Positions 17,652 to 20,638 of a stretch of DNA of 64,000 bases are shown here, piece after piece (position 1 is the first letter of the stretch; each line of letters begins with the position of its first letter). Under the pieces are notes generated by a model, which saw nothing but the letters and a program-made list of their open reading frames with translations, was not told where the DNA came from and searched no databases. The DNA comes from Bacteroidota bacterium (GTDB lineage: Bacteria > Bacteroidota > Bacteroidia > Bacteroidales > NBLH01): positions 1 to 64,000 of the forward strand of contig JANYKN010000032.1 in assembly GCA_025361565.1 (NCBI GenBank), in the 5' to 3' direction. The position numbers were made by a program, and so were the translations under genes.

Positions 17652-19139
17652 ATGAAGAAAGTTCTATATTGCATTGTTATTACATCACTTTTAGTGTCTT
17701 GTCAACCTGATTCCAATCAGGATATATCCGATCAGGAAAACAATAATCACCTTACATTAAAAGTAAATTCACCAAAAGACCCACCAAAGGAAGAATTGGA
17801 TATCAACAATATTTTCAACCAGGTGTCCCTGTTTCTAGCGGGTAGAAAATCAGAAGATTACGGAGAAATTCAGAAAAAAGACTATTATATAAATTACAAA
17901 GATAAACTTGACGAAGCCTGGAAAAACGGAACAGCTAAAAACCTTCTGAATATTAATAAATGGAAAGAAAAAAACAGATTGCCTTTCGATGATACTACCA
18001 CTCTATTTTATCCTTTTTCAGGACCAGATTTTGTATATGGAAATGCATTTTTCCCAAGGGCAAAAACGCAAATATTAATAGGACTCGAAAATCCAGGCAA
18101 ATTGCCTAATTTGTCAAAAATGGATGATCATCAGATTTCCCTTTATCTCTATAATCTTTACCATTCGCTAAGATATATAAATCAAGCCGGTTATTTTACA
18201 ACAAGTCAAATGATTAACGATTTTTCCGATTCAAGTTTAAATGGAATTATACACTTGTTGTGTTTTTATATATCCAAAACTAACAACCATATTGGAAAAA
18301 TAAGCTCCGTTCAAGTTGATCATTTTGGAAACGAAAAAGAAAAGAAAAATTTCGAAGTTGCCGATGAATTTATAAATGGAATTAAAATTGATTACTTTTC
18401 AAATGATTATCAAGAATTTAAAACCTTATATTACTTTCCTGTCGATTTATCCGATGGAAACTTAAAGGATCAATTAGGATTTTTAATGTTTCTGAATAAA
18501 TTCGGTAAAAAAAACACTTTCCTAAAATCTGCATCCTATTTGTTGCACGATAATGAATTTGGAATTATAAGGGATTTAATATTGCAACAAAGTGATAAAA
18601 TTCTACAAGATGACTCTGGTATACCATTCTCCATATTAGCAAATTCAGGTTTTTCAGTTCAATTATTTGGAAATTATACCCAAACCATTAAAATATTTTC
18701 AAGATATTATCAACCTGATTTAAAAACTGTGCTGGATGAGCAGAAAAACAGACCTTTACCCTTTAAATTAGGCTACAATAGCTGGAAAAATGAAATGATA
18801 ATAATGTATGCTAAAAAAAGCACTGTCGCTGCTAATCCACCAATTACGTACAAAACTGAAAAAGAAGGAGTTGTTTATAAAATTCAATTTAAATCATCAT
18901 GGAAAAAAATCTCATCTGAAGCTGAAGTTTTCAAAGGCTTGCCTAAAGTTGATTACTATTTTAAAGATAACTTATACAAATACACTATTGGTAGTTTTTC
19001 GAGCGAAGCCGAATGTGAAGAATATATCAGAATTGCGGTGAAGAATGGGTTTACAGACGCTTTCGTTGTTGCTTTTTATCAGAAAAACCGTATTTCGCTC
19101 GAAGAGGCTAATCAAATTATGAAAGCTAATTCTGAATAA
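17652..19139 (+). CDS. Lipoprotein with C-terminal SPOR-like domain
   Basis: The 495-residue product starts with a lipoprotein signal (MKKVLYCIVITSLLVSC, lipid-bearing Cys17). The long middle part, without a known family, is rich in Asn, Asp and Phe. The last 85 residues (about 410-490) contain two SPOR-like beta-alpha-beta units: VYKIQFKSSWKKI and YKYTIGSFSSEAECEEYI, ending in GFTDAFVVAFYQ. SPOR domains bind denuded peptidoglycan glycan strands, so a periplasm-facing envelope role is likely. A terminator-like hairpin follows the stop codon. Confidence 0.65.
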   Translation: MKKVLYCIVITSLLVSCQPDSNQDISDQENNNHLTLKVNSPKDPPKEELDINNIFNQVSLFLAGRKSEDYGEIQKKDYYINYKDKLDEAWKNGTAKNLLNINKWKEKNRLPFDDTTTLFYPFSGPDFVYGNAFFPRAKTQILIGLENPGKLPNLSKMDDHQISLYLYNLYHSLRYINQAGYFTTSQMINDFSDSSLNGIIHLLCFYISKTNNHIGKISSVQVDHFGNEKEKKNFEVADEFINGIKIDYFSNDYQEFKTLYYFPVDLSDGNLKDQLGFLMFLNKFGKKNTFLKSASYLLHDNEFGIIRDLILQQSDKILQDDSGIPFSILANSGFSVQLFGNYTQTIKIFSRYYQPDLKTVLDEQKNRPLPFKLGYNSWKNEMIIMYAKKSTVAANPPITYKTEKEGVVYKIQFKSSWKKISSEAEVFKGLPKVDYYFKDNLYKYTIGSFSSEAECEEYIRIAVKNGFTDAFVVAFYQKNRISLEEANQIMKANSE

Positions 19140-19243: not shown

Positions 19244-20638
19244 TCAATGTTCTTCTATATCTTCTGCGTCTTCCGATTTTTTCTTATTGCTTTTATTTGC
19301 TGATTTACCAATTGATTCGCGCATTTTAGTGTCTGCTTCGGTATTCATCATATTGTGGTAATCGTGTATGCTCAAATTTCCATCAATAAATGCGGCTGCC
19401 ATTGCTTTTTGAACTTTTTCTTCGGCTCTGATGAATTCAGTTTTTGCCATTTCTGCTTGAGCCTTAGCTCGTTCTGTAGTTAACTCAGCTTCAATGTCTT
19501 TTCCTACCTGAAAATCAGACACATCTATTGAAAGTATTTCAAATGCTGTTCCTTTCCAAAGATTTTTTGCATATACACGTTCCGCAAGTTCATATGGGCT
19601 GCGCAAAATATGTCGGTGACTCTCAGAATTTCCAATTTCTGAAGCCAGGCTTTCATTTACCCTTGCTAGTACAGTCTCTTCACTCGCCCCACCAATAATA
19701 GATTTAATGGAGGCACGCAAAGTTATTTTCAATTTCATGGTCAATTGCACGCCGTCCCTAGCAATACCTGTTACACCATCAGTTTCAACAACCCTTGGAG
19801 TTATGGCCGCCTCAACTGCTTTTACAACATCAATACCTGCCAAATCAATAGCAGCAATATCTTTGAAAGTAAAATTTGGTAATTCTGCCTTTCTTGCTGA
19901 AACAAAAGCATCAACTGTCCGAACAACATCACCATTGGAAAGATAATGTTCTTTTAAATCATTTACAGTCATTTCTTCATATCCTGAATTATGGGCGGTA
20001 ATCAATGCATTTATAACTTGTTCAACGTTTACTTGCGCTAAATAATGAGAAGCCAACGTTTTCAATGAAATCTCCAAATCTGCATTTTTTGCAGTAATCA
20101 AAGCATGTATTACTTTTTCCACATCAACTCTGGCAAGAAATTGAGCTGCCAATTCTTTTAAAGTTATAGACATTCCGGCATTGGTTGCTCTTATCAAAGT
20201 ATTAACCACAGTTTCGATATCAACCTGTGCAAGATAATGATCTGCCAACTCTCGTGCTGATAGAGGAAGTCCTGCATTTTTAGCTCTGATAAGTGTTTTC
20301 AAAATTAATTCCTGAGGTACACGCTGCCACCGCATTACCATTAAGGTAAGCCATGAAACTTTTATTCCGGAAAGTCTGGCTTCGTACCATAATCCAAGCG
20401 GAATAAAATAATAGAAAAATGCAATTAAGCCAGGTCCCAAAACAATTGCAGATACAATTAACAGAACTAAAGCGCCACTGCCTATTGTATCTGATTCTGA
20501 AGTCTGATCTACTTGTTCAAGTGATAGTATTTCTTCAACCTGTTCATTTGGAGCCGAATTCTTGTCAGATTTTTGACAAGAAAGACTTACCAACAAAGAG
20601 AATATTAAGATGATAAAGAAATGAAATTTTAGTCGCAT
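19244..20638 (-). CDS. floA: Flotillin-like FloA with expanded internal repeat
   Basis: The 464-residue protein matches FloA (YqfA, UPF0365), a membrane-microdomain scaffold, through PRVVETDGVTGIARDGVQ, GGASEETVLARVNESLASEIG, GTAFEILSIDVSDFQVGKDI and a C-terminal DYHNMMNTEADTKMRESIGK. FloA is usually about 330 residues. The extra length has two sources. The N terminus carries a lipoprotein-like signal (Cys21 in LVSLSC) and an acidic linker ahead of the usual membrane segment (residues 53-80). Between residues 110 and 271 there are five copies of a 32-33-residue unit (pattern E-x-V-I-x-A-L-I-x-A-x-N-A ... HYLA-x-V-D-V), where Bacillus FloA has roughly two. It is transcribed alone, convergent to the SPOR-like lipoprotein gene. 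Confidence 0.9.
   Translation of the reverse strand: MRLKFHFFIILIFSLLVSLSCQKSDKNSAPNEQVEEILSLEQVDQTSESDTIGSGALVLLIVSAIVLGPGLIAFFYYFIPLGLWYEARLSGIKVSWLTLMVMRWQRVPQELILKTLIRAKNAGLPLSARELADHYLAQVDIETVVNTLIRATNAGMSITLKELAAQFLARVDVEKVIHALITAKNADLEISLKTLASHYLAQVNVEQVINALITAHNSGYEEMTVNDLKEHYLSNGDVVRTVDAFVSARKAELPNFTFKDIAAIDLAGIDVVKAVEAAITPRVVETDGVTGIARDGVQLTMKLKITLRASIKSIIGGASEETVLARVNESLASEIGNSESHRHILRSPYELAERVYAKNLWKGTAFEILSIDVSDFQVGKDIEAELTTERAKAQAEMAKTEFIRAEEKVQKAMAAAFIDGNLSIHDYHNMMNTEADTKMRESIGKSANKSNKKKSEDAEDIEEH

Follow-up and report, generated by a model that had tools for sequence, protein, structure and literature searches.

FloA flotillins with five helical repeat units are a conserved side branch of their family in some uncultured Bacteroidales, neither a one-off nor the norm of the phylum. 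The member described here is encoded in a 64,000-nucleotide stretch of a Bacteroidota contig (the window), and the assignment of its product as a FloA-family SPFH protein of a distinct Bacteroidales subfamily is well supported. As a conserved variant, five-unit FloA falls within a known family, and we infer a function for the variant below. Neither a five-unit nor a lipoprotein-like FloA is described in the titles and abstract openings of the open-licence papers listed.

Ordinary, five-unit and giant FloA proteins make up a graded series in which an SPFH core carries 2, 5 or 10 copies of one unit. Natural variants also exist, with five bricks and no leader in two genomes (G109, G291) and a long leader with two bricks in a third (G041). 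The graded series makes spacer, membrane-footprint and client-platform ideas directly testable for the FloA helical subdomain. The subfamily also raises the question of why carriers may have no NfeD, a protein that reportedly links FloA dimers.

Family Assignment and Domain Architecture

The sequence-only reading had called the protein a FloA, and its family membership is borne out by Pfam FloA (PF12127), which matches at 336 bits (cut-off 34, E = 2.6e-100). The profile match is broken into 4 stretches, whereas it is unbroken in ordinary FloA. Against the NCBIfam FloA equivalog NF010186, the score of 364.6 bits lies under the cut-off of 393 bits, and the protein is therefore placed in the FloA family and not filed as a FloA equivalog. 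Six genomes of the same genus have intact orthologues (73-79% identity), which together with dN far below dS rules out an assembly artefact or frameshift.

The predicted fold and topology come from an AlphaFold monomer model (18 sequences; mean pLDDT 80.6, pTM 0.57). This model places a leader helix at residues 3-21, a disordered linker (pLDDT <50 at 21-53), a membrane helix at 54-78, a short helix pair at 81-104, five pairs at 109-266, a closing helix at 271-279 and a beta-alpha-beta core at 282-381, followed by C-terminal helices (Table 1). The predicted SPFH core superposes on stomatin (4fvg) over 104 residues at 2.0 Å (Z 13.5, 10% identity), a match that Foldseek also returns; the structural alignment rows cover residues 270-455 and hardly include the solenoid. 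A PDB sequence search with the 464-residue protein gave 0 matches at E up to 10.

Table 1. Features of the five-unit FloA gene in window coordinates.
Feature	Residues	Coordinates	Strand	Basis or remark
Five-repeat FloA-family gene ("lipo-FloA")		19244..20638	-	intact ORF, 464 aa
Hydrophobic leader, predicted signal peptide	1-20	20579..20638	-	R2, K4, then apolar stretch
Cys21, candidate lipobox cysteine (V-S-L-S-C)	21	20576..20578	-	invariant in 18/18 aligned relatives; strict pattern in 15/18
Acidic variable linker, predicted disordered and periplasmic	22-53	20480..20575	-	charge, pLDDT
Predicted transmembrane helix	54-78	20405..20479	-	AlphaFold model, charge pattern
U0, basic membrane-proximal helix pair	79-109	20312..20404	-	counterpart of ordinary FloA cap
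U1	110-141	20216..20311	-	unit HMM, model, unit profiles
U2	142-173	20120..20215	-	unit HMM, model, unit profiles
U3	174-205	20024..20119	-	unit HMM, model, unit profiles
U4	206-238	19925..20023	-	unit HMM, model, unit profiles
U5, abuts SPFH core	239-271 (HMM match 240-271)	19826..19924	-	counterpart of ordinary FloA second unit
SPFH (band 7) core	272-381	19496..19825	-	match to mouse stomatin SPFH 4fvg
C-terminal helices / coiled coil	382-452	19283..19495	-	25 residues short vs ordinary FloA

The Repeat Solenoid

A repeat HMM recovers the five units of 32-33 residues that the sequence-only reading had proposed for residues 110-271 (E = 8.4e-75, a value that is circular here because the HMM was built from the five-unit subfamily), and the AlphaFold model has five pairs of helices, of 13 and 9 residues, in register with them. 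By this HMM, five units are found in all 24 relatives, the window protein included, and two in all 26 ordinary FloA rows (24 distinct). The units of ordinary FloA are also scored by subfamily unit profiles, which are less circular than the HMM. The earlier estimate of three extra units and some 97 added residues thus holds (162 minus 64 residues, about 97-98). A sixth HMM hit in two relatives (L075, L077) has no positive score, and a spurious 13-residue hit falls within the coiled coil of another (L109).

Unit profiles show which part of the solenoid grew. U0 matches the ordinary FloA cap, U5 is the equivalent of the second ordinary unit, and U4, with U1 slightly behind it, is that of the first; U2 and U3 most closely resemble each other. 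By these correspondences a single middle unit was multiplied to four, and the expansion left the membrane-proximal cap and the SPFH-abutting unit in place. U0 itself bears a weak sequence likeness to the units (hhalign E 2.7e-4, probability 41.6% against U1, and less against U3). Tandem Repeats Finder detects no DNA-level array in the gene, which rules out recent repeat slippage and indicates that the unit duplication is old. In five pairs of relatives, repeat dN is 0.011-0.14, with dS at 1.4-1.6 in the two computable pairs and saturated in the other three; for example, dN is 0.14 against saturated dS between the window protein and G003, and 0.011 against 1.44 between G006 and G002. Such slow evolution, with dN far below dS, argues that the repeats are used.

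The N Terminus and Membrane Topology

The cysteine that the sequence-only reading had singled out ahead of the membrane segment, Cys21, follows a basic-hydrophobic leader and fits a PROSITE-like lipobox pattern. The same pattern is passed by 6 of the 40 window ORFs put to the test (45 are listed), the six comprising this gene and probable true lipoproteins, so that a lipobox in one gene alone is weak evidence. Among the 24 relatives, however, 22 have a Cys at the end of the leader, 16 on the strict pattern and six off it (N before the Cys in L074; Pro-Gly in L075, L077 and L113; Glu at -1 in L109; Cys at -4 in L116). In the 26 ordinary FloA rows the pattern is absent, and so is any Cys between residues 11 and 40. 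From its sequence context, Cys21 is probably lipidated. The two remaining relatives (G109 and G291, from one family) have the membrane helix at their very start, and their upstream frames contain no leader; given these two leaderless and six off-pattern proteins, lipidation is not essential to the subfamily.

The basic side of a membrane helix faces the cytoplasm under the positive-inside rule. Because the linker before the helix is acidic (net charge -6 in the window protein; mean -7.7 and lengths 32-66 in 18 relatives) and the cap after it is basic, the repeats and SPFH core are predicted to be cytoplasmic.

Distribution and Phylogeny

At E up to 1e-60, 16 of 295 genomes in the order encode a full-length relative, counting the source genome of the window; at E up to 1e-58, the source genome is the single such case in a phylum sample of 395. 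FloA as a family is present at E up to 1e-30 in 73 of 296 phylum genomes, and in each of the 72 FloA-positive genomes other than the source genome the best match is one continuous hit of some 310 residues to the profile, which by this criterion marks the ordinary form. The sequence-only reading had allowed that all Bacteroidota FloA might share the five repeats and lipobox; the comparison across the phylum found no such sharing, and a phylum norm is ruled out because the other FloA-positive genomes have the ordinary form. Scanning 84,980 species genomes by pattern led to 17 confirmed loci, each in a record titled as a metagenome bin (13 Bacteroidales, one Bacteroidetes, two Draconibacterium and one Rikenella). 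The proposed repeat gain therefore stands as three extra units, but not as an isolated event: it is part of a conserved subfamily in which the repeats are under purifying selection, the coiled coil carries a deletion and many carriers also have a giant paralogue.

In a tree of the SPFH core and coiled coil, the 24 five-unit proteins form one clade (100/99) and 25 ordinary FloA proteins another (100/97), with 13 giants on one side (100/99) under long-branch warnings. When 9 of the 13 giants are omitted, the five-unit clade stands (99/98). The trees leave out a 194-aa fragment (L044:5323-5907) and a weak 432-aa relative (L069:4612-5910), and a shadow-ORF filter removed one ordinary FloA (L123) and the G041 giant. 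The G041 relative is sister to the five-unit clade (99/94; 96/87 with 9 giants omitted), with its alternative grouping with ordinary FloA not rejected (p-AU 0.143). If that sister position is right, the leader may have arisen before the repeats; the candidate Cys of G041 has R at -1 and fails the lipobox pattern. The protein itself (L037:5988-7451) has a leader, about 110 residues by eye from candidate Cys to membrane helix and two clear units, and its gene adjoins that of a 710-aa giant.

Coiled Coil, NfeD and Gene Neighbourhood

A stretch of 25 coiled-coil residues (240-264 of the 329-aa ordinary FloA in L032) is missing in 24/24 five-unit proteins and present in 25/25 ordinary ones, and the full-length EA-rich coiled coil of ordinary FloA is found in none of the five-unit proteins. 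The G041 relative retains 21 of these residues, yet is without NfeD; the deletion is thus not required for NfeD loss, and the two need not go together.

NfeD adjoins ordinary FloA at 18 of 20 loci of the order (none recognised at L121 and L124). At these loci, a SPOR homologue follows NfeD in 5, and in 4 (L126, L128, L131, L137) recA comes next, neighbour counts that are likely too low because labels came from BLAST against few reference proteins. Many carriers of five-unit FloA seem to be without ordinary FloA and its partner NfeD. Ordinary FloA is present in 6 of 19 searched carriers (G001, G002, G004, G005, G022, G042), always beside a short NfeD, and none was detected in the remaining 13; carriers that share a genus or family are not independent. 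Two NfeD signals were obtained in those 13, one beside a Band 7 protein (G061) and one a fragment at a contig end (G006). In the source genome (97.99% complete, draft), neither ordinary FloA nor NfeD was found; NfeD was detected in 12 of 14 control genomes. Since carriers are draft metagenome assemblies with completeness of 59-99%, single absences may be gaps.

The gene order in G001 reads recA, SPOR protein (817 aa), NfeD, ordinary FloA, giant FloA (794 aa) and five-unit FloA. A giant lies directly upstream of the five-unit gene in 11 of 24 carriers and a SPOR-protein homologue precedes it in 15 of 24, with several contigs ending too early in both counts. Pfam SPOR is matched by four of the five homologues scanned, including that of the source genome, and not by the one in L078. 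The window gene stands alone, with an adjoining aminotransferase and histidine kinase common to G003; the SPOR protein (815 aa) and giant of the source genome lie together on another contig (C109, L031).

The source-genome giant (L031:6014-8380, 788 aa) shares the unit, the SPFH core and Pfam FloA with five-unit FloA. It differs in having ten 32-residue units, which follow without a gap the grid of the G001 giant, the one modelled, for which ten 32-residue helix pairs are predicted (mean pLDDT 77.5). Other giants have fewer residues, 488 aa at the least, and only a part of them is scored by the unit HMM. For the giant at L063:5461-7845 (model m425ce1d52bf7), the top Foldseek match is BurrH (4cj9; TALE-like DNA-binding repeats; E 5.4e-4), with poor global superposition (TMq 0.15, rmsd 25 Å).

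Comparison with Known SPFH Proteins

Ordinary Bacteroidota FloA (e.g., L063:4445-5434) shares Pfam FloA, the cap, the first and second unit and the SPFH core with the five-unit form, and differs from it in unit number, lack of a lipobox, longer coiled coil and adjoining NfeD. Staphylococcus aureus FloA is reported to have the same succession of N-terminal transmembrane segment, helical subdomain-1, SPFH/PHB subdomain-2, coiled coil and low-complexity tail (PMC11222466). Its subdomain-1 has six helices, as against twelve predicted in five-unit FloA, and helices 1-2 are reported as needed for lipid binding and microdomain localisation (PMC11222466). By count and position, those six helices would be the cap and two units of ordinary FloA. 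The S. aureus protein works with NfeD, which contacts the FloA coiled coil, and the account of it, as far as it was available to us, mentions no lipobox (PMC11222466).

Lengthened SPFH proteins are also reported among the giant SPFH2 flotillins, in which the coiled coil grows (Hinderhofer et al., 2009, PMC2636767); in five-unit FloA, by contrast, it is the membrane-proximal solenoid that is longer, and the coiled coil is shorter. The cages reported for flotillin and HflK/C have the SPFH core fold in common with it (PMC11260169). In mammalian flotillin the SPFH1 domains meet the membrane (PMC11260169), whereas in five-unit FloA a predicted solenoid lies between membrane helix and SPFH core.

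A Scaffold Model and Its Alternatives

We give roughly even odds (about 0.5) to a transmembrane, probably lipidated SPFH scaffold that functions without NfeD and whose longer solenoid holds the SPFH ring away from the membrane. A lipoprotein leader would direct export of the N terminus, and after its cleavage Cys21 would receive a lipid on the outer side of the inner membrane; the acidic linker would lead into a single transmembrane helix, and the remainder would be cytoplasmic. The basic pair U0 would touch the membrane, and U1-U5 would stack as a solenoid arm bearing the SPFH core and shortened coiled coil. Subunits are assumed to oligomerise through the coiled-coil/SPFH end into a ring or cage, like other SPFH proteins. 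The three extra pairs would serve mainly as a spacer, raising the ring and enlarging the chamber or reach beneath it. A second anchor and altered coiled coil may allow work without NfeD, and the protein could replace the ordinary FloA-NfeD pair; the coiled-coil deletion and NfeD absence fit a scaffold that no longer uses NfeD. Within this scheme, lipidation, ring formation, the spacer role and NfeD independence are steps that we infer.

What the added units do is where other readings diverge. Helical solenoids commonly bind proteins, and the added units might be a binding platform for clients or partners (unfolded membrane proteins or the neighbouring giant FloA) instead of a spacer. For S. 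aureus FloA, holding of unfolded proteins has been reported (PMC11222466), the units come close to the SPFH core in conservation (mean identity 0.60-0.67, with 0.69 for the core) and are slow-evolving, and the giant is often the upstream neighbour; however, no ligand or conserved pocket was identified, and the conserved unit positions may be purely structural, which leaves a platform possible but the less probable role. The sequence-only reading had instead suggested a change in oligomer size or membrane footprint; a larger footprint would have the extra units on the bilayer, enlarging the lipid-recognition surface. Helices 1-2 of the S. aureus subdomain are reported to bind staphyloxanthin, and its PHB domain to form a plane facing lipids, the latter speaking against a spacer as well as for a footprint (PMC11222466). 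Yet U0, the lipid-binding pair by position, is not the pair that was multiplied, and its mean net charge is basic (+3.7), whereas U1-U5 are neutral to acidic (-0.4 to -3.1) and the G001 giant has a negative charge on 8 of its 10 units. Because the basic U0 was kept and neutral to acidic units were multiplied, a spacer arm is favoured, and a larger footprint is distinctly unlikely.

Neutral repeat drift without functional change, as an ordinary variant of the phylum, would accord with reports that SPFH proteins vary in length, coiled-coil giants included (PMC2636767), and that subdomain-1 helices vary across the phylogenetic tree (PMC11222466). Such drift is highly improbable in view of the fixed count of five in every relative, the ordinary best matches in the 72 other genomes and the low repeat dN. 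The spacer scaffold could also be part of a larger design, which we regard as unlikely: a length-coded flotillin set with 2, 5 and 10 units of a 32-residue brick, one member being a membrane-spanning lipoprotein, might co-assemble or nest into platforms of different heights and couple a cytoplasmic SPFH cage to a periplasmic SPOR protein, with no NfeD needed.

Other Genes at the FloA Loci

Convergent with the FloA gene in the window is a gene for a 495-aa lipoprotein (17652-19139, + strand), the C-terminal end of which looks SPOR-like by eye; Pfam gave no match for this protein. Diverged, solenoid-rich FloA-like ORFs lie between the SPOR gene and the giant at L069:3840-5910 (267 + 432 aa) and L072:3079-5268 (360 + 332 aa), making arrays of up to four FloA relatives. 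Downstream of five-unit FloA, START-domain and TerB genes are present in G004 (L066:3749-5250), with similar genes in G005 and G006.
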